From positions 1 through 25,168 of the IMG/VR virus record IMGVR_UViG_3300031227_000389: 25,168 nucleotides of DNA, one strand, 5' to 3'. The notes below the pieces were generated by a model that searched no databases, was not told the origin of the DNA, and saw only the letters and a program-made list of their open reading frames with translations. This DNA comes from a virus. Positions 192-14,062 of this stretch are shown here, one piece after another. A program made the translations under genes and the position numbers. Positions within the stretch are counted from its first letter, which is position 1; each line of letters starts with the position of its first letter.

Positions 192-776
192 TTACGCCCA
201 TTCGATGTGGCCAAGAGGTTTGCTGTCCCAGATTGCATTCCCGCCACTCACGTCACTGGATGCGTTCTTGGACTCAAACATAACCGTAATCGCCGCGGCA
301 TCTTCCGAAGTGAAATCCGTTTCCACGTTAGCGGAAACCTGCGCCCTCGGAAAGATAAAGGTCATGGTATTGGAACCGTTGGGGTAGGTGTAAACACCCT
401 CAACCCGCAGGTACTCCGGTGCAACACGGCCGCCCAGCACGATCTCTCCGGAATGCACTTCCGCGTAATCGCTCGCAGGATCGATGCCGTTAGCCAACGC
501 CATATTGTAAGGTGTGATTTCTTTGAAAGCGCATTCGAGCGCGGCACCTTCCCGGATAGGAACGGTGTAATCCTCAATAAGAGGAAAGCCGGACTCCAGC
601 TTATACCAATCGGTGTTACCGACAAACTTGGTACTCGCAAGTGCGCCAATGGAATCACTCGCCGTCAATCCTGCTCCTGGCTGAGTGATATAGGTTGCCG
701 AGGTGCCTACGCGAATCTGCATAAGCCCAATGGCAATGGTCGAAGTATCTTTGGTAACTGGTCCTTGTCGACTCAT
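192..776 (-). CDS. Major tail tube protein
   Basis: This 194-residue protein, starting MSRQGPVTKD, should polymerise into the tail tube. I chose the ATG at 776 because GGAG lies 9 bases upstream; an in-frame extension to 812 has no good site. The sequence is beta-rich with few Cys. It has a segment around residues 58-80 (YKLESGFPLIEDYTVP) followed by ECAFKEITPYNMALANG, the arrangement seen in many siphophage tube proteins where a strand pair precedes a short helix. It follows a tail terminator candidate and a Com-like gene and precedes a chaperone-like gene, the usual order. The leader upstream is AT-rich with an 8-base T-run. Assignment rests on position, size and fold-like pattern. Confidence 0.72.
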   Translation of the reverse strand: MSRQGPVTKDTSTIAIGLMQIRVGTSATYITQPGAGLTASDSIGALASTKFVGNTDWYKLESGFPLIEDYTVPIREGAALECAFKEITPYNMALANGIDPASDYAEVHSGEIVLGGRVAPEYLRVEGVYTYPNGSNTMTFIFPRAQVSANVETDFTSEDAAAITVMFESKNASSDVSGGNAIWDSKPLGHIEWA

Positions 777-1749: not shown

Positions 1750-1952
1750 TGCCCTACCTCTTGCGCTACTCCATCCAATGTCTTCCAGAAAGTAGTCTTT
1801 AAAAACTCGACTGCTCTTGGTAGCTTCGGATCTTCACTGCCATCAAACTCGATCACCGCTATCTCTAACGCATCAAGAACCATATCTATTTCGTTTAGGC
1901 TCATGTCGAGAGTTACATGAATGTCCTTTGGCTCTATGTTTACAATTCTCAT
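1746..1952 (-). CDS. Small acidic protein, unknown
   Basis: This 68-residue protein starts MRIVNIEPKDIHV if the ATG at 1952 is used. That ATG overlaps the stop of the gp10-like gene as ATGA, typical of this operon; an in-frame GTG at 1958 would add two residues. It is acidic and mostly helical, with a segment like LNEIDMVLDALEIA (about residues 19-32). No Cys or known motif is visible. It belongs to the neck/tail-completion block. Confidence 0.55.
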   Translation of the reverse strand: MRIVNIEPKDIHVTLDMSLNEIDMVLDALEIAVIEFDGSEDPKLPRAVEFLKTTFWKTLDGVAQEVGQ

Positions 1953-2464
1953 TTCCACTCAGCTCCCATGCGTTTCAGCATTTCATCGCCACGCTTTTGG
2001 AATCCTTCTTTCTCATATTCTTTCATGGTCGGTTCAAACACTGGGCGTTTGCTCTCCTCTACACGTCCGTACATCTCAATAGATTTCGATGGTCCCTTTG
2101 CCCCTTTCTTTCCTTTACCGAACCACGACTTGCCGCCAGAATCCATCTTCCCAGGTTGAACTCCCCCCAAATATCCTTCCCCGAATTTGTAAGCTCCCAG
2201 ACTGGCAACCAAATCACCTTTCAACTTCCATGGCGACGGGTATCCCATCCACCCATACTCATACTTCCAGTTCCGGTATCGCTTCGAATAGCCTGGGCTT
2301 GGCGCTCGTCTGTGCTGGATGTTCTTCATTACCAGCTGATAATAATCAACAGCGCACTTCCACGGGAGGGTTTCAAGGCCTTGAGTCTTAACGACTTGCG
2401 TGAGACCGCTAAGGGCAGACATTATCCTCTGTGCATCAGCTTTATTGACTTTAACCGATATCAT
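1949..2464 (-). CDS. HK97 gp10-like tail completion / virion morphogenesis protein
   Basis: This 171-residue protein has the features of HK97 gp10-type or 'virion morphogenesis' proteins, which sit at the head-tail junction or tail end. It has an N-terminal beta segment (MISVKVNKAD), helices, a basic Gly/Lys-rich middle (residues about 92-125) and a C-terminal region RPVFEPTMKEYEKEGF followed by a helix. The 'RP.F.PT' plus C-terminal helix pattern is common to that family. It overlaps the previous gene by 14 bases and the next by 4. It marks the return to ordinary structural genes after the glycan cassette. Confidence 0.62.
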   Translation of the reverse strand: MISVKVNKADAQRIMSALSGLTQVVKTQGLETLPWKCAVDYYQLVMKNIQHRRAPSPGYSKRYRNWKYEYGWMGYPSPWKLKGDLVASLGAYKFGEGYLGGVQPGKMDSGGKSWFGKGKKGAKGPSKSIEMYGRVEESKRPVFEPTMKEYEKEGFQKRGDEMLKRMGAEWK

Positions 2465-2834
2465 GGATCCACCCGTTTAAGACTGTCTCAAAAGTTACAT
2501 CCTGCTCCTCCGGCATTAAAGAACCGTCTTTCAACGTGATATGCCGCCTGAATATTCTCGGAGACCTTGAGCCTTTTTTATTCCCATCTGTTTTGAAAAG
2601 TACCAAAGCGTCGGCTTTCGTATATTCGAGAAACACCTTCAGGCCTTCGTTCAACTGCTCGTCAATGCGCTCATCGTCATACACAACGCCGTACCAATCC
2701 AGGCGGTCAGTACCATTGATTTCCTCCAGCCTCGCAACACGGTGGACCTCAGAGGCCAAGCCGTCAAAGGAACCAATGGTTTCCCGAGGGTCTTTAGGGT
2801 CAGCGCAGCCATTTACGACAAACAAGGTCATCAT
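2451..2834 (-). CDS. Last gene of the glycan cassette, unknown function
   Basis: This 127-residue protein starts MMTLFVVNGCADPKDP at ATG 2834, which overlaps the radical SAM stop as ATGA; the open frame extends further upstream without a better start. Alternating strands and helices include DWYGVVYDDERIDEQL and KADALVLFKTD, followed by PRIFRRHITL. That looks like a compact alpha/beta fold, possibly a small glycosyltransferase-like or sugar-binding domain, but I recognise no catalytic motif. It is coupled to the cassette upstream and overlaps the gp10-like gene downstream by 14 bases. A cassette function is inferred from context only. Confidence 0.55.
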   Translation of the reverse strand: MMTLFVVNGCADPKDPRETIGSFDGLASEVHRVARLEEINGTDRLDWYGVVYDDERIDEQLNEGLKVFLEYTKADALVLFKTDGNKKGSRSPRIFRRHITLKDGSLMPEEQDVTFETVLNGWIHDIG

Positions 2835-4027
2835 CTTAAAAGCTCCGGTTGTTTGAATTCGTGTTCCAATAAATCCCGCCATTCAAGGATCTCCATACCA
2901 CTCAAATGCTCAGTTCTTGCAATCGGTTCATACTCTCCCGGCTTACCCTTGTACCAACCGGGCTTACCGTTATATTCGAATTGGATGCCCCACTTTTCAG
3001 GATCAGCGAATATCTTCGAACCGGGCATTGGCTGGAAGACAGATAGGTCAACATCGTCCGGTTCCGCTTCGATGATCCAATCTGCGGTGTCCATAACCGT
3101 CTGCGTACTTTCCCCGGGGAGCCCGACAATTAGAAACGCCTTCGCCCTTATCCCGTTATCATGCAGGCGCCGGACAGCATTGACGTTTTGTTTTCTGGTG
3201 GTCCCTTTCATATTCAAACTCAGGATTTCATCAGATCCGCTTTCAATCCCGATACCAACTTCTACAACGCCCATCTTCTTTAAAAGTTTACAAACCTTAT
3301 CGTCCAGGAGATTACTTCTTGCAAAACATCGGAATTTGAACTCACCTTCAACCGCGTTGGCGATTCTTTCAAGCCGCTTTTTACTGGCGACAAACACATC
3401 ATCAAAGATCATGAACGCATCGTAACCGTACTTTTCGCTGACGTGCCGGATCTCGCTTATGGTTCTTTCCGCCGACTGCATCTGGAAGTCATGGTCGATC
3501 TTCGCGCAAAATGAGCAGCGAAAACAGCAACTCCTGGAAGTCATGATCGGTGTGGCCGGCACTCCATCGATATCGTAGTGATAATCTTTAATTGGGAGTG
3601 CGTCTCGATCTGGGAACGGGTAATCGTCAATAGGTATTTTCATGGCGTTCGGCTTAAGAGGCAATCTCGATAGCATCCAATGGAGGTTCTGCTCACCTCT
3701 ACCTCTCAAGACCCAACCGAAATGATCGCCACATTCATCCGACATATGAGTAGGATGCGGGCCGCCAGCAATGACCTTTTTCCCAGCGTCCATAAATTGA
3801 TCTGCCAGCTTAAAAGACTCTCCTCTTTGTGGAGTTGTGAAAGATATCCCAACCACATCAGATTCAACCATCTCAGGAGTATGGCCAATCCCACAGTCCA
3901 AGCACTGAACGTCCCACCCCTTCTGTTTCAGATAGGCAGAAAGATACATGATGCCCAGCGGAGGGAATACCGCTTGATCTAAAAGAAACGGGCTCGATGG
4001 GAATATCAATGTGATGTCAGGCTTCAT
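2831..4027 (-). CDS. B12-binding-type radical SAM enzyme
   Basis: This 398-residue protein combines an N-terminal cobalamin-binding-like domain (about 1-125, with PPLGIMYLSAYL and IAGGPHPT) and a radical SAM core. The core has the cluster motif C167-x3-C171-x2-C174 (TSRSCCFRCSFCA) and downstream GIESGSDEIL and FLIVGLPGES, typical of the family. Known relatives carry out methylations or carbon-skeleton chemistry through a 5'-deoxyadenosyl radical. The DxHxxG cobalt-ligand motif is not seen in the B12 domain, as in many family members. It overlaps the preceding methyltransferase-like gene and the next gene by 4 bases. In this setting it could methylate or rearrange a sugar or an amino acid side chain; that is inference. 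Confidence 0.9.
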   Translation of the reverse strand: MKPDITLIFPSSPFLLDQAVFPPLGIMYLSAYLKQKGWDVQCLDCGIGHTPEMVESDVVGISFTTPQRGESFKLADQFMDAGKKVIAGGPHPTHMSDECGDHFGWVLRGRGEQNLHWMLSRLPLKPNAMKIPIDDYPFPDRDALPIKDYHYDIDGVPATPIMTSRSCCFRCSFCAKIDHDFQMQSAERTISEIRHVSEKYGYDAFMIFDDVFVASKKRLERIANAVEGEFKFRCFARSNLLDDKVCKLLKKMGVVEVGIGIESGSDEILSLNMKGTTRKQNVNAVRRLHDNGIRAKAFLIVGLPGESTQTVMDTADWIIEAEPDDVDLSVFQPMPGSKIFADPEKWGIQFEYNGKPGWYKGKPGEYEPIARTEHLSGMEILEWRDLLEHEFKQPELLR

Positions 4028-4764
4028 AATCCCTCACTCAGTTCTTTTCGATATAGTTCGATTGCTTTTTGTGGATCCGGATAACCAATATCAGAATCGT
4101 TTATGAATCGAGTAGGGACGTCGTTCTTCCAAAAGAAGCCGAGTTGCCCCCAATCCAGCGGCTCGTAATGCTTCAGCTCTTTTTCCAGTGGACCAAAATC
4201 CATGGTTTCAATGGCGCTCAATTTCGGGAACCCCCAGAGGGCACTGTCTTTTATGGTGTAAACCCACCGATGGGGAAACGCCCCTCGATAGGATCCGGAC
4301 AATCCTAATCGTCTCAGGCCTTCATCCCCGAACTCACGCCCTCTGCCTAATTCAAAATACTTGTTGGGAACACCGATATATCCTTCATCCGCTAAGTCCG
4401 GAAGCATCTCAAAAAACCGTTGAGGATAAGACAGGTGCTCGGCCATTTGGGTGCAGACAACAAAGTCAAACTTCCCACGGATTGCCACGAACTCAACCAA
4501 TTCTTCCCACACCTCGTCAGATTCGCAGTCTCCATAAAACAACTTTGATCCCCATATCTCAGGATGATTATCGTACATATCCGGGTAACGCTTCATCCAA
4601 TCATGTGGGTTCACCATGTCCACATAGGCCTTTACATAATTGGAAGCCCACGGTCTTTGCACTCCCCCGATGTCGATGCAGTTGAAGAACATTCGGTTTT
4701 CCAGGTATTCTAGCACCCGGTTGTCCCCCATACCCTGAGTCTCTAATCGTTCTCCCGTAATCAA
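4024..4764 (-). CDS. Class I SAM-dependent methyltransferase-like protein
   Basis: This 246-residue protein has a Rossmann-type methyltransferase layout. FNCIDIGG (about residues 27-34) is a diverged motif I, and FDFVVCTQMAEHLSYPQRFF (about 99-118) matches the 'D.v.....EHl' segment of Methyltransf_11-like enzymes. It is followed by ADEGYIGVPN in place of the usual 'L.pGG' strand. The start is TTG at 4764 with GGAGG 7 bases upstream, and it overlaps the preceding stop as TTGA; an in-frame ATG at 4731 is the alternative. It may methylate a sugar. The diverged glycine motif means a non-catalytic or variant role cannot be excluded. Confidence 0.65.
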   Translation of the reverse strand: MITGERLETQGMGDNRVLEYLENRMFFNCIDIGGVQRPWASNYVKAYVDMVNPHDWMKRYPDMYDNHPEIWGSKLFYGDCESDEVWEELVEFVAIRGKFDFVVCTQMAEHLSYPQRFFEMLPDLADEGYIGVPNKYFELGRGREFGDEGLRRLGLSGSYRGAFPHRWVYTIKDSALWGFPKLSAIETMDFGPLEKELKHYEPLDWGQLGFFWKNDVPTRFINDSDIGYPDPQKAIELYRKELSEGL

Positions 4765-5831
4765 AACGGCACCTCCAGAGAATCAAACCTGCTACCGTCT
4801 TTTATCTTATTGAAGAACCATTCGTATCGTCTCGCCATCAGATCAGCAGTGAACCTCTCTTCAAACTGCTTACGGCACTCAGCAGGGTCAATCTCACCGA
4901 TCCGGTTGATTAGGGGAACCCCTGTATCCACTATGGCTTCCAGATCATCGGACGTATATCTCAACACATATCCATTGACACCATCCATGATGAAATCGTC
5001 TGTCTCAACCGAGCAAGGTTTTTGCACCATGCTCATCCCAACGATCGGTGTCCCCATCGCCATCGCTTCCAGCATGATAATGCCTGCATGCTCCCGCCAT
5101 GTGCTATTGTTTGTATATATCAAACACTTGGATTTACTCATTATTTTGTACTTCATGGCGTCATCTACGCCGCGAACCCAGAACACATTCTCGTTGTCAA
5201 TGTATGGTGCGACCTCGTTCCAAAAAGTGCCTGAATTATAGGGAGGCCCCATTACCACCAGTTTCAAACCCGCAGCTTTCGCCAGTTCGATTCCAACCCT
5301 GGGTGCTTTGCCGCCTTCCAGCTTACCAATCCAGCAGGCGTAATCTTCCTTGTCCGGTTGGAAGGGATATAAATCCTTCGGTAGACCATAGTGAATCATG
5401 GTGCTTGGCACTCCGCTGGATACCAGATCCTCTTGCAGGAGATTCGAGTAAGAAACGATATTGAACGGTTTTACTTCTGGGAATTCGAACTTGCTGTGCG
5501 TCCATTTACACCAGCAAAGCTCGACGTATGGCCATCTGTCAAAAACATCCCTGGTCCCGGATCCAAAGTATCCGCAGAAATAAATATCCGGTTCAACACC
5601 AGTCCGGTTCACATAGTCGCATACGGCCTTGTAATGAACGTCGTAATCACTCAACGGCCCCACGGGGATGTATTCAGTCGCTTCGGGGACGTTCGTTCCT
5701 TCTCGCGCAAATAGGTAGACCTGGTGCCCTAATTTGACCAGCTCTTGCGTGAGGTAGCCCAGGATTCTTTCGCCGCCGTAGCTTAGTCCCGCTCCAAAGG
5801 GGAATGAGTTCCCTGTTAGAAAAATTTTCAT
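4761..5831 (-). CDS. GT4-family glycosyltransferase
   Basis: This 356-residue GT-B enzyme should transfer a sugar from a nucleotide donor with retention of configuration. The N-terminal domain opens KIFLTGNSFPFGAGLSYGGE, the acceptor-side loop pattern of GT4 enzymes. The C-terminal donor domain has CWIGKLEGGKAP and an E-x7-E motif (E247 in WREHAGIIM, E255 in LEAMAMGTP), followed by GTPIVG. I place the start at ATG 5831, with GGAG 6 bases upstream; it shares its A with the previous stop. A TTG one codon earlier is possible. There is no signal peptide or membrane segment, so it acts in the cytoplasm on a soluble acceptor or assembling virion protein. Confidence 0.88.
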   Translation of the reverse strand: MKIFLTGNSFPFGAGLSYGGERILGYLTQELVKLGHQVYLFAREGTNVPEATEYIPVGPLSDYDVHYKAVCDYVNRTGVEPDIYFCGYFGSGTRDVFDRWPYVELCWCKWTHSKFEFPEVKPFNIVSYSNLLQEDLVSSGVPSTMIHYGLPKDLYPFQPDKEDYACWIGKLEGGKAPRVGIELAKAAGLKLVVMGPPYNSGTFWNEVAPYIDNENVFWVRGVDDAMKYKIMSKSKCLIYTNNSTWREHAGIIMLEAMAMGTPIVGMSMVQKPCSVETDDFIMDGVNGYVLRYTSDDLEAIVDTGVPLINRIGEIDPAECRKQFEERFTADLMARRYEWFFNKIKDGSRFDSLEVPF

Positions 5832-6691
5832 CAAATTCTCCTTGCCGCGAAATCACACGGATATGAGATTGTATTTGCGTACTCAATAACCTTCTTGTAT
5901 GGCCATTCATTCATCTGCTTGAGAACTCCCGAGTAATACCTCGACCAAGAAAACATATGATACCGTTGTGGTTGAATGGGAGGATAAAACACTTGGCTTT
6001 GACCAATCGCCCAGAGACCGAGGATATGCTCAAGCCAGGGAGTTCTTGGGGTGTCTTCCTCGCCATAACCTTCATACAAATAATCCGAATCCAAAAGGCA
6101 CCGAACAACTTCCCTGTAATCCGATATGTTGGGACAAATTTCAGGATTCGGCATTCGTTTAGTCATAAAAAATCTCGTCGAGGCCCACCAATGATGCTTG
6201 AACCTTGGATCAACCGCAGGCGCCGGGCTGTAAGCACTCGGGTAACAAATGAACTGATACTTACCTTCATCAAGCCATTCAATCCATTCGTCAATTACCG
6301 ACGGATCATTAATGAACGCATTCATATCTCCGTCCATGTGTACGAGGTAATCGCCCCTTGAAATCGTCATCGCGTTAAGGAAATTAAGATCATTCCACTT
6401 CGGGCAAAACTCCCCTAAGAACTGTTCCGTGTGCCGATTAAAAACCAGATTGTCTATAATTCCGCCATCGTTTTCGTTTAAGAGCCAGTGTTCAACCTGT
6501 TCGGGCAGTCTTTCGTGGATGTCGATGAAGACCGTCGTTTCCAGATCGTGGCCTTCGAAAAACTTAACTTTGTTGATGACCCCTTCGGTAAAGAAGTCCA
6601 AGGAACGAGTCCCTTTCATCATGGTGCTTTGAACGGTCTCGTCCTCCATGAATCCCGGTCTGGTATCCAGGTTGATTACAAGACTGATCAT
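5831..6691 (-). CDS. GT-A-type glycosyltransferase
   Basis: This 286-residue protein looks like a GT2-related transferase. It starts MISLVINLDTRPGF, then after a long first half has NAMTISRGDYLVHMDGDMNAF, where D120-G-D122 is a DxD metal/nucleotide-sugar site. The 'N.m...rGDYl...DgD' context is characteristic of GT-A folds. The C-terminal part is rich in Trp and Tyr (FSWSRYYSG), and a likely acceptor-side region. The start overlaps the previous stop as ATGA, and the stop overlaps the next ATG. The donor sugar cannot be told from sequence. It belongs to the coupled cassette. Confidence 0.78.
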   Translation of the reverse strand: MISLVINLDTRPGFMEDETVQSTMMKGTRSLDFFTEGVINKVKFFEGHDLETTVFIDIHERLPEQVEHWLLNENDGGIIDNLVFNRHTEQFLGEFCPKWNDLNFLNAMTISRGDYLVHMDGDMNAFINDPSVIDEWIEWLDEGKYQFICYPSAYSPAPAVDPRFKHHWWASTRFFMTKRMPNPEICPNISDYREVVRCLLDSDYLYEGYGEEDTPRTPWLEHILGLWAIGQSQVFYPPIQPQRYHMFSWSRYYSGVLKQMNEWPYKKVIEYANTISYPCDFAARRI

Positions 6692-6966
6692 TGATCTCGA
6701 ACCCCCTTCATCACATTCTCTTGAAACTCCCGAAGCGTTTTACCGTGGCGCATGGCATTGGCTATCCGTTCACCGGTCATTGGATGCCACCTCACGTCCC
6801 CGACAAACTCGTACATGGAGTCATCAGGGATATCGAGCCCCATCTTCACGGCATCCTCATCGCTCACGTTCTCGATGGAATCGCATCGGTCAAAATAGCA
6901 CCAGTTTGGTTTTTCATCGAATCTGCCACTTCTTCCGCATTGCTTACAACAATAAATGACGCTCAT
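6688..6966 (-). CDS. Zinc-ribbon protein in the glycan cassette
   Basis: This 92-residue protein starts MSVIYCCKQCGRSGRF at ATG 6966, which overlaps the SGNH gene stop as ATGA; a longer in-frame version from 6990 lacks this coupling. Cys at residues 6, 7 and 10, then Cys 23 and 28 (NWCYFDRC), suggest one zinc ribbon. The rest is an acidic linker and a C-terminal helical segment (GERIANAMRHGKTLREFQ). No enzyme motif is visible. It may be an RNA- or protein-binding accessory to its neighbours. I do not recognise the family. Confidence 0.6.
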   Translation of the reverse strand: MSVIYCCKQCGRSGRFDEKPNWCYFDRCDSIENVSDEDAVKMGLDIPDDSMYEFVGDVRWHPMTGERIANAMRHGKTLREFQENVMKGVRDQ

Positions 6967-7625
6967 ATTTCCAACCCCACTCGTTTGCATTCTTCCAACA
7001 TATCCGGTAGATTCTTCTGACTCAAATGCGTATCATCCAAATACCAATCCGGATCCGAATATCTTTCTTCGTCACACATACGGTTAAAGATTGAAATGCA
7101 GCGTGATCCGTCCCATGCTGTCCGCATCACCTCATTGAATCTCTGGCTTGCTTCTCGAATCTGCTCCCAAGTTCCAACCGCCGATTCGATAGTCCCTTCC
7201 TCTTTCTTCTTGATGACATGAGGCAGCAACACGTAAGCATTGACACCACGGTCTTTATACGCTTCAAGGCCTTCAACATACCTGTGGACAATCTCGTCAA
7301 TCACGGCCCATAAAGACCGATACGCCGACCGTCTATTCAAAGCGTAATCCCAAACGTGACAGCGGCAATCGATTTCCCCGAAAGAAAAAATTACGGGAGA
7401 TCCGGCAGGGACGCCTTTCAGGAAATGGTCAACAGCGACCGTCACAGGATGATCATGCCAAGCGGTCGCAGACTGCCTCTGCCCAAAATTGTATGCCAAC
7501 CGTGCCGACACATTGCCTGTCCTGAAGTTTGGCAACTTGTCCCCCTTATTGGGGAACCCTACGCTTAGGCCATCCGCGTTACCTGAGAATATGGAAACAT
7601 GACTATCGCCTATGACGTAGTTCAT
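6963..7625 (-). CDS. SGNH/GDSL-family hydrolase or acyltransferase
   Basis: This 220-residue protein has the blocks of the SGNH superfamily. The nucleophile lies in GDSH (Ser8) two residues after the first strand, block III is FSFGEIDCR (residues 80-88), and the catalytic dyad is D197-x2-H200 in LDDTHLS near the C terminus. SGNH enzymes add or remove acyl groups, often acetyl, on sugars. 'GDSH..' together with 'GEIDCR' is a subgroup often found near glycosyltransferases. There is no signal peptide, so it acts in the cytoplasm. It overlaps the upstream methyltransferase and the downstream zinc-ribbon gene by 4 bases each. Esterase or transferase direction is not resolvable here. Confidence 0.82.
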   Translation of the reverse strand: MNYVIGDSHVSIFSGNADGLSVGFPNKGDKLPNFRTGNVSARLAYNFGQRQSATAWHDHPVTVAVDHFLKGVPAGSPVIFSFGEIDCRCHVWDYALNRRSAYRSLWAVIDEIVHRYVEGLEAYKDRGVNAYVLLPHVIKKKEEGTIESAVGTWEQIREASQRFNEVMRTAWDGSRCISIFNRMCDEERYSDPDWYLDDTHLSQKNLPDMLEECKRVGLEI

Positions 7626-8329
7626 TGTTTTCTCCTAACGCACCCGACAAAAATGGGGAAATCAACCCCAGGCATGTGCCAGGAATCATTCCCATCTTCC
7701 AGCTTATTTTCCTTGGCATACTCAATCGCAGACTTCCAATCGATCTCAATGGCCTCATACTTCCCCGTGGAGATTAAATACTCATACGCTTTAGCAGGCC
7801 CGATGTATTGATTCCTGAAATCATGGAAGAAGACAAGACCACCAGGACTGACCAGATGCTCCAGCATCCTGACCTCCTGATGAACGAGTTCCACCTGATG
7901 ATCGTCTGAGTCAATGAAAGCGTAGCTGACCGGACCTTTTGCCTGAGACAAGAATTGAATAGATGACAACCCAGCGAGAACAACGTGCGGATAATATTTC
8001 TCAACCCTTTTCTTTATCGTGGCCTTAGCGTTTGGCTCCCGTAAGTAACCCCACGGCATCAGATCCGCATCCCCCTGTGTGGTGTGTTTCCACTCAGGAT
8101 TCATGAGATCGTATGCCAGGTCCACCATGAAGAACCTCCCCTTAAATCCAACATCGGCCAACGCCTTGGCACCAACAATAGATGATTTCCCAGCGTTAGA
8201 GCCCAAATCAACGGCAACGCCATGGGGATCGCCTTGTAAACTGCCTATCACTGTGCGGTAAATCCCTACAGACTCCGTCATGGAAATGGCGCCGGGTATC
8301 TTCTTCACATCCTCGAACATCTGCATCAT
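7622..8329 (-). CDS. Class I SAM-dependent methyltransferase (Methyltransf_24-like)
   Basis: This 235-residue protein has motif I as AVDLGSNAGKSSIVGAKAL (about residues 39-57), an acidic strand-2 end (FFMVDLAYDL), and the late pattern YAFIDSDDHQVELVHQEV then LEHLVSPGGLVFFHDF. The last is the signature of Methyltransf_24-type O-methyltransferases and related sugar-modifying enzymes. I start at ATG 8329, with GGAGG 7 bases upstream and an ATGA overlap with the GT2 stop; the TTG at 8344 is less likely. It probably methylates a sugar hydroxyl or makes a modified sugar. The acceptor is unknown. A hydroxylase-like relative is the main alternative. Confidence 0.78.
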   Translation of the reverse strand: MMQMFEDVKKIPGAISMTESVGIYRTVIGSLQGDPHGVAVDLGSNAGKSSIVGAKALADVGFKGRFFMVDLAYDLMNPEWKHTTQGDADLMPWGYLREPNAKATIKKRVEKYYPHVVLAGLSSIQFLSQAKGPVSYAFIDSDDHQVELVHQEVRMLEHLVSPGGLVFFHDFRNQYIGPAKAYEYLISTGKYEAIEIDWKSAIEYAKENKLEDGNDSWHMPGVDFPIFVGCVRRKQ

Positions 8330-9072
8330 CGATTTTCCTCCCAATAACTCGGTAGCGCATAATGAGCTATTTCAGGTTTAGCATCACACTCAAAGACGTC
8401 GGCTTCCAAACCGAGGTATTCCCTTCTTGCTTGGTTCCTTAACCACTGGCGTTCAATGCTATCCCGATCCCTGGCGTCTTCCTTGCCGTGGTAATGGATC
8501 AAATCAGCTTGGATGTTCTTGTTGGTGAATAATTGTTCCTGCAGGCCAAAGAGCATATGATGGGGGGAATTGACCCACTGCATTCCAAGGCGTCTTCTTA
8601 TGATCCGCAACTGAAAGTCCGGATATTGACCAATCTGGTGAGACGTGAGCCAGAAGCCGTCAGGTCCGGGCATGGCAAAAGGTGAGCCAGGAAACCGCAT
8701 AAGCTCATAAGATTTTCTGGAAACATGAACACAGTCCGCATCGTCCGGCATGCCGTTCTCATCGATATCTGCAAGAAGCGACTTCAACTCCGGAGAGCAT
8801 TGTTCGTCAAAATCCAGAATGAAAAAGATTTCGTCCATCGGGATATACTGGAGCAGGATGTTCGACTGGATGACTTCCTGAGCATGAAACCATTTTTCCC
8901 ATTTGTGCTGGTACACTTCCACTTTCGGGAACTGTTTCAGCTCAATAACGGTATCGTCAGAGGAACAACCATCAATCACGATGATCCGGTCGACCCAAGG
9001 TTCATCATGGATATCGCCTATGACCGGCTTAACTGAGGTCTGTTCATTGAGGCATTTCATCCCTATCAACAT
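8326..9072 (-). CDS. GT2-family glycosyltransferase
   Basis: This 248-residue GT-A enzyme has the first nucleotide-binding segment VDRIIVIDGCSSDDTV (residues 27-42) and the DxD motif L-D87-F-D89-E90. The layout matches WaaE/KdtX-like and other short GT2 enzymes that work on 'MLIGMKCLNEQ.....' starts. The C-terminal part contains HH and IHYHGKEDARDRD, likely acceptor and metal contacts. It overlaps the upstream fusion glycosyltransferase by 7 bases (ATGTTGA), so translation is coupled. No membrane segment is seen. Donor and acceptor are unknown; an inverting transfer is expected for GT2. Confidence 0.85.
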   Translation of the reverse strand: MLIGMKCLNEQTSVKPVIGDIHDEPWVDRIIVIDGCSSDDTVIELKQFPKVEVYQHKWEKWFHAQEVIQSNILLQYIPMDEIFFILDFDEQCSPELKSLLADIDENGMPDDADCVHVSRKSYELMRFPGSPFAMPGPDGFWLTSHQIGQYPDFQLRIIRRRLGMQWVNSPHHMLFGLQEQLFTNKNIQADLIHYHGKEDARDRDSIERQWLRNQARREYLGLEADVFECDAKPEIAHYALPSYWEENR

Positions 9073-11108
9073 AACAATCCCTCCAATGCCTTAGAAACAT
9101 CGAATGGCGAAATCGTGTTGATACAAGGAGACGTACACTTGACTTTGTTTCTCTGCGGTGTACTCCAGCAATGGCTGAGCGGGGCGCAGACCTGCAGCAT
9201 ATCCGGTTCCAGGTTGACCAGCTTCGCACCGCCCTTCATCCTCGGTTGGACAACCCTTGCCGGCGCAGGCCCGTACAGGACAACCACGTCAGTTCCCACA
9301 GCCCCGGCCAAATGGCTCATGAAGCTGTCAACAACAACGGCGGCCTTTGCGTTCTGCACAACCCAGGCTGATTCACGCCAGGTGAGTTTTCCGCATAAAT
9401 CAAGATCGGATTTACATCTCAAATCGCCAGGCCCTCCAAGTTGAACCACGGGCATGTCAATGTCTTGCAAGACCATGTCCATGTGAGAGTAGGACCGATA
9501 CTCCTTGCTGCCGCCCGTGGTGTGGACAACGATGTAGCCATCTCCAATATTGGCTCCTGCTGGCATTATTCCCATGATTCCCGTAATTGGTGGGTTCGGA
9601 CTGATAAAGATTTCATCGGGGTCGACGTTCACAAAATAGGGATACATACTGTGGAGAGTCACATCCAAATTATTCCACCCGCCAGGGAGGATTTTTTGCT
9701 GGTGAGGCGAGTAAACGATGGCGTATTCTTTCAAGAGCCGTTCGTCCCAACCAATGATTTCATCAATGTATTTATTGTCTTCGATAACCCCGGCAAACAC
9801 TTTCTGTGTCATGTAAACCAACGGAAGGTCTGGATGTCGTTCCTTAAGACCCTTAAAGCACTGTGTCGTCATAAGAACGTCCCCGGCGGAGGAATGCTGT
9901 GCGAACAGCACAGCTTCTATCTTTTTAACCTTACGTTTTTTGGAGGACGACTTCAAAAGAGCGTTAATGTCGTCAACCCCGGATACCCATTCATTGGCTA
10001 CCTTCAACCCTTTCCGTGACATTTCCTTCCTGAGTTCGGCGTCCTTCGCCACCTTAATAATGGCGTCACGAATATCCTCCACACGGCAGGCCTTTGATTC
10101 AACCGAGGCGTTACCTCCCTCGCTCGACATCGGCACGTAAGCCATATCTCTACACGGCACCATCAGCCCAGCATCTTCCACCAACTCTGTCTGAGCCGTC
10201 GTGTCAGAAGCAATGACAGGAGTGCCGCACAGCATGGCCTCAAGGGGAGTCCAAGACAAACCTTCCTGCATACTGCAGTTCACTAAACAATCGATGGCAT
10301 TAAAAATCATGGGCATTTTAGAACGCTCATAAGATAACCCCTGCTGTTTAGACACCAAATCCCCGGCAACCGCCCCATTATCCTGAGCGATCTGCTTCAG
10401 ATTATAAAGACCTTCCAGGTCAGAATGTAGATAAAGAACGATGTTCGGGACTTCTTTCTTGGCTTCCATGAACGCTTTCACAAGCCGTTCTGGAGACTTT
10501 CTAACTTGGTTATGGCCCACAAATCCGAAGATCACGGAACCAATCGCCACATTAGGAAACACCTGCTGTCTGGCAAGGGATAGGTCATCGCCCTCAAGAG
10601 GTTTGAATTGATCCCAACCGTTCAAGTGAGGTCGATAATATTTGACGTGAGGGACATGAGGTTTAAGCACGTCGTAGCCGAACTTGGAATAAACGCATGG
10701 AGCGTCTAAAATGTTCAGGTAGGGTATCCAGGCAGGTTGCAAATCCCATGTATCGTAAGGGAATATGGCAATCCACTTGAATTTCTTGGCATCACGGTAT
10801 CGACGAATGACGTCCCAGATTTTTAGATATCTCCAAAAATCAATCCCAACCATGACGAGATAATCAAAGTCGGTTTCCTGAATGATAGAAATAAGTCGTT
10901 GGCTTCCCCAGTAATCCGATTGGCTTGTCCCGTTCACTAATGTATAAGGCAAAGGGTCAAACATCACCGATGACGGGTTCACATCATGCACGACAAAGCA
11001 ACCTGGCCGAAACTTGTCCTGATCCAAGTCGGACAATATCGCTGCAAGCATATTTGAATTTCCACTGGTCCCTATGGGGTTTTCCCCGACGAACAACACT
11101 CGTTTCAT
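9066..11108 (-). CDS. Two-domain glycosyltransferase: GT4 fused to GT9
   Basis: This 680-residue protein holds two GT-B enzymes. Residues 1-390 are GT4-like: a start of MKRVLFVGENPIGTSG, GFVGHNQVRKSPERLV (195-210), and an E-x7-E motif (E282 in QEGLSWTP, E290 in LEAMLCGTP). After a basic linker (SSSKKRKVKK, 387-396), residues 397-680 look like GT9 (heptosyltransferase-type): HSSAGDVLMTT (405-414) and VVVDSFMSHLAGAVGTDVVVLYGP. Four Cys (641, 647, 658, 662) sit near the end. Such a fusion would add two successive sugars. The ATG has GGAGG 5 bases upstream, and it is the first cassette gene, 22 bases after the head-closure-like gene. Confidence 0.85.
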   Translation of the reverse strand: MKRVLFVGENPIGTSGNSNMLAAILSDLDQDKFRPGCFVVHDVNPSSVMFDPLPYTLVNGTSQSDYWGSQRLISIIQETDFDYLVMVGIDFWRYLKIWDVIRRYRDAKKFKWIAIFPYDTWDLQPAWIPYLNILDAPCVYSKFGYDVLKPHVPHVKYYRPHLNGWDQFKPLEGDDLSLARQQVFPNVAIGSVIFGFVGHNQVRKSPERLVKAFMEAKKEVPNIVLYLHSDLEGLYNLKQIAQDNGAVAGDLVSKQQGLSYERSKMPMIFNAIDCLVNCSMQEGLSWTPLEAMLCGTPVIASDTTAQTELVEDAGLMVPCRDMAYVPMSSEGGNASVESKACRVEDIRDAIIKVAKDAELRKEMSRKGLKVANEWVSGVDDINALLKSSSKKRKVKKIEAVLFAQHSSAGDVLMTTQCFKGLKERHPDLPLVYMTQKVFAGVIEDNKYIDEIIGWDERLLKEYAIVYSPHQQKILPGGWNNLDVTLHSMYPYFVNVDPDEIFISPNPPITGIMGIMPAGANIGDGYIVVHTTGGSKEYRSYSHMDMVLQDIDMPVVQLGGPGDLRCKSDLDLCGKLTWRESAWVVQNAKAAVVVDSFMSHLAGAVGTDVVVLYGPAPARVVQPRMKGGAKLVNLEPDMLQVCAPLSHCWSTPQRNKVKCTSPCINTISPFDVSKALEGLLC

Positions 11109-11130: not shown

Positions 11131-11757
11131 TTATCGGTGGTCTTCCTCGACCACTAAGACATCTATGTTCGGGTAACGCCTTGGTTCAATAACACTGACC
11201 TGATAATATTCCCCGGAATACGGTTGCCAACGATCCAGGACCCTTACGCCCACTGAATGCTGGATCAAAACTTCCTTTTTATCCAAACCAAGCAACGCTA
11301 TTTCCTGATCGGTTTCGAGATCATTGCCGTAAAGAGCCGCGACCTGCATTGCGTCACAGTTAGCCTTGATGACTTCCCACTCAGTTTCTTTATGGTATTG
11401 ATTTAAAGGATCGTCCCACGTTTCACCACTCGGTCGAAGCAACTCACCACTCGATATGTTGCACTTGTAAAAAACCGTATCGTAATGAACTATTGCGTTT
11501 TCAAACAACTCAGGGAGAGTGTTCGTGGCCAAAAACCGTTCATTAATGACTGGGAACTCGACCACATCACCGGCAAGGATGTCAGTATCATACGGTGTCA
11601 TCCCGCGCCTGAAGGCCTCGATTGTCAGGGGTTTGGTTAACTGAGAAGAGAACTCAAGCAGCCCAAATTCTCCGGATATGTTACCACTATTCCGAATGAT
11701 GGTGTACGCCACCCCAACTTCAACAAGTGCTGCCTTTATATCTTCACCGACGCTCAT
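11131..11757 (-). CDS. Neck protein, head-closure-like
   Basis: This 208-residue protein starts MSVGEDIKAALVEVG; its ATG shares one base with the homing endonuclease stop. It has an N-terminal helix, then mainly strands (DILAGDVVEFPVINERFLATN) and ends with YYQVSVIEPRRYPNIDVLVVEED. A beta-barrel-like end of this type is common in head-closure (stopper) proteins that plug the portal. Size and position between a connector-like gene and the gp10-like gene fit, if the glycan cassette is mentally removed. No catalytic motif is seen. Function is inferred from order and fold pattern. Confidence 0.5.
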   Translation of the reverse strand: MSVGEDIKAALVEVGVAYTIIRNSGNISGEFGLLEFSSQLTKPLTIEAFRRGMTPYDTDILAGDVVEFPVINERFLATNTLPELFENAIVHYDTVFYKCNISSGELLRPSGETWDDPLNQYHKETEWEVIKANCDAMQVAALYGNDLETDQEIALLGLDKKEVLIQHSVGVRVLDRWQPYSGEYYQVSVIEPRRYPNIDVLVVEEDHR

Positions 11758-12599
11758 CAGTCTCTCTCCGGTATATGCCTATCTTTGGACACTTTATGGC
11801 AAGTCCACCCTTTGTCGGAATCCTTTTTCCCTTTTGCAACCTGATACATATTCCCCTGATTAAGATTATGCTCTCTGCAAAATTTCTTTAAATTCAAAGT
11901 GACATATTCTTCTTTATCGGGGCCTATAACCTTCCACTGATACGCCCATGCGACTTTGCCTTTCTGCACACTCCGCAGCTTTTCTTTTTGCTCATCCATC
12001 ATAGGACCTCGTTTTTTACCAGTACGAGCGAGTGTCCCTTTGCGTATGGATTCAGGCGACGGTATGTTCCCCATCAAGGATTTAGAGATTTTATCTTTTG
12101 TTTCCTGTGAGAGTGTTGCTCCGTATCTTGGATGATTCGTAGGATCAGCAAACTTGGTTTTCACTTCGATAGACTTTTTACGACACCATTCTTCCGACCT
12201 GACTATCCCAGCGTTTTTCTCTCCACCGTTTGTTAGATTCACAAGAGTTCCTGCTCCGAGGTCTCTTCTTCCGTACCTCTGGATTAAGACCTCTTCATAG
12301 TCGAGAGCGGCTTCTTCAGAATCAAAAAACCGAACGATATCGCAATAAACGTATCTCCCATTCCTCCAGCATTTTCTCAGGTAATTCGGGACAGGGAAGT
12401 TATACGTGTTATTAACAGCGTTTGTTTCGTGGCGGTAAGCTCGTCTCATGTGACCTTTCCCGACGTAAAAGGGTTTTTCATCTCTGAAGACGTAAACATA
12501 AAACCTCGTATCATTTTCCAACTCAGAAGAACTGTGACTGTAGATAACCTTTTCGGTTTGACAAGAAACGCCCAAGTGTGTTACTGGTTCTTTAGCCAT
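11757..12599 (-). CDS. Free-standing GIY-YIG homing endonuclease
   Basis: This 280-residue protein has an N-terminal GIY-YIG nuclease domain (residues about 32-126) with FYVYVFRD (33-40) and PFYVGKG (43-49), a later EEALDYEE helix, and LVNLTNGG (119-126). Next comes a stretch with repeated Ser/Lys-rich DNA-contact motifs of NUMOD3 type (about 155-215: LSQETKDKISKSLMG, PESIRKGTLARTG, MDEQKEKLRS). The C-terminal domain (LKKFCREHNLNQGNMYQVAKGK) is helix-turn-helix-like. Such enzymes cut alleles lacking their gene and spread into them. It has its own AGGAGGT ribosome site, and sits between two neck genes, downstream of a large hairpin. The reading frame is intact. Confidence 0.9.
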   Translation of the reverse strand: MAKEPVTHLGVSCQTEKVIYSHSSSELENDTRFYVYVFRDEKPFYVGKGHMRRAYRHETNAVNNTYNFPVPNYLRKCWRNGRYVYCDIVRFFDSEEAALDYEEVLIQRYGRRDLGAGTLVNLTNGGEKNAGIVRSEEWCRKKSIEVKTKFADPTNHPRYGATLSQETKDKISKSLMGNIPSPESIRKGTLARTGKKRGPMMDEQKEKLRSVQKGKVAWAYQWKVIGPDKEEYVTLNLKKFCREHNLNQGNMYQVAKGKKDSDKGWTCHKVSKDRHIPERD

Positions 12600-13591: not shown

Positions 13592-14062
13592 TTAAGTAGG
13601 TTCAAGTTCAACAACAATGGTGAAAGTACCCATCTCCGTGGTTGGAGTCGCGGTCCTTGTCAGCGCCATGTCATACGTCAGAACGTCTCCATACGAAATG
13701 TCATTGTTGTCCGCATCCATAGCGGCCTGCGTCACGCCGGTATCAGCATCATCCTTCGTGGTTTTGTTGGTGCTTGATTCACCACTCACATGAGCAATGA
13801 TCGGAGCAGTACCCAAGCACGACGTTCCGTTAATCAGCACATCAGCGGTAAGGGACAACGTAGCTGAATCGTCCTTCCCGCTCTGACCAACAGACAGCCA
13901 AACATCAGACACCTTCCCCGCCACATTACAGGCACCCAAAGGCACACCGGATTGGTTAACGGTCAATTCCCCCGAAACAACCGCCAGCATGGGCGAAGCG
14001 TCATTCGCCGCCCACTGCTTACGGGCTTTAGGAGTGGGGTATGGTCCTTGTCTCTGTCTCAT
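13592..14062 (-). CDS. Minor capsid / head fibre-type protein
   Basis: This 156-residue protein starts MRQRQGPYPTPKARKQW. The rest is beta-rich and high in Ser, Thr, Ala, Asp and Gly (for example SLTADVLINGTSCLG and DMALTRTATPTTEMG), like surface-exposed accessory capsid proteins. It is placed directly after the major capsid gene, as expected for a decoration or fibre protein. It has two Cys and no catalytic motif. Thr- and Ser-rich exposed segments make it a possible acceptor for glycans made by the downstream cassette; that is inference. The exact family is not recognised. Confidence 0.5.
   Translation of the reverse strand: MRQRQGPYPTPKARKQWAANDASPMLAVVSGELTVNQSGVPLGACNVAGKVSDVWLSVGQSGKDDSATLSLTADVLINGTSCLGTAPIIAHVSGESSTNKTTKDDADTGVTQAAMDADNNDISYGDVLTYDMALTRTATPTTEMGTFTIVVELEPT

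Follow-up and report, generated by a model that had tools for sequence, protein, structure and literature searches.

A hypervariable glycan-building cassette in the structural operon of uncultured siphophages is a probable virion-glycosylation locus

The virus record IMGVR_UViG_3300031227_000389 of IMG/VR carries a cassette of glycan-building genes that is probably a virion-glycosylation locus: swappable, serotype-like, co-expressed with the late structural genes and directing protein glycosylation in the cytosol. The window analysed is the entire record of 25,168 bp, in which almost all genes lie on the minus strand and form an HK97-type late operon (terminase, portal, protease, decoration protein, major capsid protein (MCP), neck genes, cassette and tail genes, several of these names being based on gene order and on relatives). 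The cassette proper consists of nine overlapping minus-strand genes at 2831-11108. Four of them encode glycosyltransferases (GTs), which have five transferase domains between them; the others encode two methyltransferase-like proteins, a zinc ribbon and enzymes of the SGNH and B12-radical-SAM types. A tenth gene, 143, forms the far end. Glycosylation of the virion in step with its assembly, as proposed in an earlier note made from these letters alone, is the best-supported reading, given the structural-operon site throughout the lineage, the lack of any sign of a promoter or terminator of its own, the soluble enzymes and the precedent of cluster O mycobacteriophages. The genes of the cassette and its boundaries are as follows.

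11131..11757, minus strand: neck208, head-tail connector gene, upstream boundary (before GT4-GT9 in related loci; adjoins tc171 in cassette-free relatives)
9066..11108, minus strand: GT4-GT9 fusion glycosyltransferase, 680 aa, near-core first cassette gene (Pfam Glycos_transf_1 1.9e-14 and Glyco_transf_9 1.5e-7)
8326..9072, minus strand: GT2 glycosyltransferase, SunS/GmaR-like, usual second gene (Pfam Glycos_transf_2 1.6e-6; SunS NCBIfam 1.3e-5)
7622..8329, minus strand: class I methyltransferase, MT24 (Methyltransf_24 5e-10; weak likeness to rhamnosyl O-methyltransferase)
6963..7625, minus strand: SGNH-type enzyme, O-acyl transferase or esterase (GDSH, GEID and DxxH blocks)
6688..6990, minus strand: zinc-ribbon protein, 100 aa (Cys pairs in the sequence; family in cassettes of 12 relatives)
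5831..6691, minus strand: GT-A-like glycosyltransferase without a curated family (HxDGD motif, H-x-D-x-D, invariant in ten relatives)
4761..5831, minus strand: GT4 glycosyltransferase (Pfam Glycos_transf_1 1.7e-10)
4024..4764, minus strand: methyltransferase-like protein, MT23 (weak Methyltransf_23 match, 1.1e-3)
2831..4027, minus strand: B12-binding radical SAM enzyme (Pfam Radical_SAM 2.5e-21 and B12-binding 1.7e-11; PhpK-type NCBIfam 7.9e-32)
2451..2834, minus strand: gene 143, small GT-A-like protein, conserved last cassette gene (AlphaFold pLDDT 87.6; Foldseek SunS/ThuS probability 1.0)
1949..2464, minus strand: tc171, neck/tail-completion-like gene, downstream boundary (weak PHROG 26 match; synteny)

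Relatives were collected from IMG/VR by capsid, by GT4-GT9 and by tail protein, giving about 280 viral loci in 164 dereplicated groups. These are metagenomic fragments, so that the absence of a gene holds for the records fetched rather than for whole genomes; ORF (open reading frame) calls were automatic, as was the clustering, which may split or merge families. The 19 full cassettes contain 52 families, 24 of them singletons, and just the GT4-GT9 and 143 families reach at least 90% presence. The ten-gene cassette as a fixed unit is therefore rejected, its constant parts being GT4-GT9 and 143 alone. A database search for the same gene order, as the earlier note had suggested, found GT4-GT9 after neck208 and 143 at the far edge to recur, and the genes of the middle to be highly variable.

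GT4-GT9 directly follows neck208 in all loci holding both, with the exception of the L119/L126/L128 group, in which a cupin gene and two HldE (ADP-heptose) genes are inserted between them. It is a near-core gene of the lineage that follows phage ancestry, its identity tracking that of neck208 (rho 0.83). One relative has a frameshift that breaks GT4-GT9 into pieces (L072:7497-9310), through either an assembly error or inactivation of the gene. At the other edge, all 23 GT-bearing lineages whose site can be read have 143 as the last cassette gene. Shared content of the cassette as a whole follows neck208 moderately (rho 0.46). The MCP of L064 is 88% identical to that of the window, yet the two have 1 of 16 further cassette families in common; the MCP of L053 is 44% identical, yet 7 of 11 families are shared. 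Judged from such comparisons, the middle of the cassette is exchanged between phages. A change on a smaller scale separates L044 and L051, which are about 100% identical apart from a 658-bp deletion of one cassette gene.

Cassettes of relatives reach about 16 genes. They include a DegT aminotransferase, dehydratases, epimerases, RmlD, a carbamoyltransferase, GNAT and hexapeptide acyltransferases, LicD, cupin, GT8, SPASM radical SAM and ADP-heptose synthesis genes, along with pyruvyl-transferase-like, deacetylase-like and sulfotransferase-like proteins identified by reading their sequences. Homing endonuclease genes of the GIY-YIG/HNH types occur at or in the cassettes (window 11757-12599; L038:12024-12875; L009:15080-15793; L041:2602-3567; also L057), and these endonucleases could promote cassette exchange. 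We found no comparable hypervariable phage locus in the literature, as far as open papers go.

The neck genes flanking the cassette normally adjoin, as the earlier note had stated: in L115, L118, L133 and other relatives that lack the cassette, the tc171 homologue lies within about 10 bp after the neck208 homologue. The ORFs of the cassette overlap by 4 bp or slightly more, most starts have a Shine-Dalgarno-like sequence, and the GC content is similar to that of adjoining genes. The cassette has 6 promoter-like sites where 16.7 would be expected, and its terminator-like sites are about as frequent as chance predicts. Co-transcription of the cassette with the late structural genes is presumed.

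All ten ORFs described in the earlier note exist, on the minus strand, and overlap. Family searches clearly back GT4-GT9, GT2, GT4, Methyltransf_24 and B12-radical-SAM. Motifs invariant in relatives support the SGNH and GT-A assignments, the second methyltransferase-like protein matches Methyltransf_23 weakly, and three starts are revised: 143 should start at 2834 (127 aa) and not at 2882, MT24 more likely starts at 8329, picked from its Shine-Dalgarno sequence in an ORF opening at 8344, and GT4 more likely starts at 5831. The GT9 half of the fusion is assigned to ADP-heptosyltransferase family GT9 by Pfam and NCBIfam matches and by two motifs whose positions hardly vary among six relatives, an N-terminal GD motif (SAGDVLMTT) and a C-terminal D-(S/T)-x-x-SH motif (VVDSFxSHxxGA). 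A cupin, an HldE adenylyltransferase and an HldE kinase gene stand just upstream of GT4-GT9 in L119 (12715-14349) and L126 (9754-11392), and the HldE genes indicate ADP-heptose-like donors. For the GT2 protein, a PDB profile search gave SunS and GmaR as the best solved natural relatives, with weak matches. SunS and ThuS are S-glycosyltransferases, GmaR is a flagellin O-GlcNAc transferase, and GT9 autotransporter heptosyltransferases also glycosylate protein; like the enzymes proposed here they are soluble and transfer sugar to protein in the cytosol, the sequence likeness to the cassette enzymes being weak. In the PDB, the GT9 half matches lipopolysaccharide (LPS) heptosyltransferases and not protein heptosyltransferases.

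The SGNH enzyme has no Pfam match; its G-x-S-H, G-E-I-D and D-x-x-H blocks have Ser, Asp and His invariant in five relatives. Neither Pfam nor PDB searches supported the GT-A gene at 5831..6691. The radical SAM enzyme contains a CX3CX2C motif, and its closest PDB match is the diol-dehydratase AprD4 (5.7e-13), a sugar-deoxygenating enzyme; by this likeness it likely carries out sugar C-methylation or deoxygenation. The product of 143, listed as unknown in the earlier note, is not wholly so: it has a predicted GT-A-like fold, of the same fold class as SunS. The fold search gave this result, whereas a profile comparison of 143 with GT2 found no match; the DxD motif is just partly kept, and enzymatic activity of the modelled protein is uncertain.

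On this reading, glycan building would start in the cytosol with GT4-GT9, usually joined by the SunS/GmaR-like GT2, attaching the first sugars to a structural protein of the phage, perhaps the tail tube, the capsid or a decoration protein. Exchangeable downstream genes, here the GT-A, GT4, two methyltransferases, SGNH acyl-type enzyme and B12-radical-SAM enzyme, would extend and tailor the glycan. The edges GT4-GT9 and 143 would be inherited with the phage, and exchange of the middle would yield serotype-like diversity, which may hide the particle from decoys or predators or keep the host from recognising it. The identity of the sugars and a methylated and acylated glycan chemistry are presumptive. 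Two candidate acceptors are encoded in the window.

192..776, minus strand: major tail (tube) protein, short form without a domain of about 105 aa (relatives' tail proteins compared)
13592..14062, minus strand: 156, candidate jelly-roll-like decoration protein (mostly confined to GT-bearing phages; weak jelly-roll match)

Co-occurrence and a weak jelly-roll match do not make 156 a proven acceptor. The tail-tube protein has 193-219 aa in most relatives and 272-311 aa in others, which have an internal domain of about 105 aa that looks beta-rich. Many cassette-free relatives carry this domain (L115, L118, L129-L139 and L227-L271). After dereplication, 35 lineages have the domain without a neck cassette, 27 have a cassette, and none has both (0/27). 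The domain is missing from L066 and L068 (both cassette lineages), from the window clade and from a clade whose cassette lies between portal and protease, and in the capsid tree each of these stands among or beside domain-bearing phages. GT2-family genes are missing altogether from three large domain-type records (L139, L234 and L263), while they are present in the GT-cassette records tested; a fourth domain-type record, L243, has two GT2-family genes located elsewhere in the record. This lack of co-occurrence suggests a glycan in place of the extra tail-tube domain, and it favours the tail tube or the virion exterior as the site of the glycan. A strict two-sided either/or is rejected, as some phages with short tail proteins have neither feature. 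We offer more tentatively, and with more doubt than belief, the fuller picture of a phage "serotype locus" in which the GT4-GT9 initiator and 143 bracket an exchangeable region and the glycan replaces the tail-tube domain, so that the coat is a protein domain or a variable sugar and never both. Two further arrangements were seen around 143. A tail-tube paralogue of 174 aa with a Tat-type signal (MVSRRGFLKVAGG) lies between 143 and tc171 in L043 (20644-21168), L044 (20644-21168) and L051 (18808-19332), and a GT-free relative that retains 143 has a fibre-like protein of 729 aa at the cassette position (L182:5084-7273).

Several points weigh against virion glycosylation. The glycan on virion proteins is predicted from genes and not from mass spectrometry, no acceptor site was recognised, and the GT-A, SGNH, zinc-ribbon and MT23 assignments come from motifs or weak matches. 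The exclusivity of cassette and tail domain is one-sided, since 24 of 77 tree rows have neither GT4-GT9 nor the domain (several of these belonging to a clade with a portal-protease cassette), and it partly follows phylogeny, a confounder. Finally, 143 also occurs in 14 of 65 cassette-free lineages and is thus rejected as a cassette-exclusive marker.

The cassette could instead alter the host envelope, namely the core or the O-antigen of LPS, one conceivable purpose being to keep other phages from superinfecting the cell. The classical role of GT9 enzymes is that of LPS heptosyltransferases; relatives carry ADP-heptose genes, and the enzyme set is O-antigen-like. Bacterial O-antigen and capsule loci likewise have conserved flanks around swappable sugar-nucleotide, transferase and acyl/methyl genes. 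Unlike these, the cassettes lie in a phage structural operon throughout the lineage, and family searches and a hydropathy scan found no flippase, polymerase, initiating membrane transferase (Wzx, Wzy, WecA/WbaP) or ABC exporter in them. The scan flagged seven of 315 cassette proteins, of which one looks like a real membrane protein (DUF2061), and this near lack of membrane proteins makes lipid-linked synthesis and export unlikely. Homologous cassettes beside host envelope genes, which would have spoken for this reading, were not found: in 84,980 bacterial and archaeal species genomes of GTDB, in a pattern-based scan that reaches close relatives only, the sole clear GT4-GT9 match is a phage-like 31-kb contig (L078) with the same synteny. 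Nor does an envelope role predict the association with tail-tube architecture, and we consider it improbable.

Still less probable is that the cassette yields a small glycoconjugate, soluble or lipid-linked, that has nothing to do with the virion, or that it is cargo spread by homing endonucleases. Such endonucleases do lie in and beside the cassettes of the window, L009, L038 and L057, and cassette turnover is very fast; however, GT4-GT9 and 143 are retained, with conserved motifs intact, over deep divergence (MCP to about 44%). Hypermodification of phage DNA bases with sugars, of which phage glycosyltransferases are capable (PMC12619734), is very improbable: a thymidylate-synthase-family gene (PF00303, which includes dUMP/dCMP hydroxymethylases) was found in 0 of 12 phage records of up to 93 kb, which may be incomplete, a result that speaks against hypermodified pyrimidines, the cassette lies beside neck genes and not replication genes, and the nearest GT2 relatives act on peptides or proteins.

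Virion glycosylation has its closest parallel in cluster O mycobacteriophages, in which GTs and a methyltransferase are encoded between the portal and protease genes (PMC4351075); these genes are reported, in a secondary account, to modify the capsid and tail tube (PMC11600133, citing Freeman et al. 2023). Corndog gp35-38 resembles the cassette in combining a methyltransferase and glycosyltransferases within the virion structural operon. Several relatives without a neck cassette have glycan genes at this same portal-protease site (L017:3706-8134, L027:2270-7885 and L029:2269-8068). Corndog has four genes, described as common to the cluster O phages examined, whereas the present cassettes have up to about 16, are hypervariable, occupy the neck site and add the GT4-GT9 fusion and, in relatives, sugar-precursor synthesis. 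Corndog was absent from the tblastn matches of GT4-GT9, GT2, GT4, MT24 and radical SAM, and it is the location and the types of gene, rather than common descent, that place the cassette with the cluster O kind. Synechococcus phage S-CBS4 has a GT, a galactosyltransferase and an S-adenosylmethionine methyltransferase (gp014-016, putative functions) at the portal-protease site. The GT of this phage matches the GT4 half distantly (25%), the GT9 half was not detected, and there are three genes and no neck-site cassette.

No isolate among 50,697 phage records was matched by nucleotide search or by translated terminase, capsid or tail protein, and by this measure the cassette phages are an uncultured, isolate-free siphophage lineage. 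A host assignment through an Ignavibacteriota contig is rejected, as among the 396 genomes of that phylum a close capsid match occurs only in the one metagenome-assembled genome in question.

This locus exceeds the known kind in size, is hypervariable and has a new fusion enzyme as its anchor. Glycosylation of the particle has been demonstrated in very few phages, and here a whole lineage without isolates seems to carry genes for a strain-specific glycan of its own, at a constant position in the structural operon. The lineage lets the evolution of sugar serotypes on virions be tested, and since the phage tree shows both states, protein domain and glycan, in alternation, the role of tail-tube and capsid decoration can be tested as well. 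The cassettes further offer, in compact form, enzymes for glycan building that are soluble and need no carrier.

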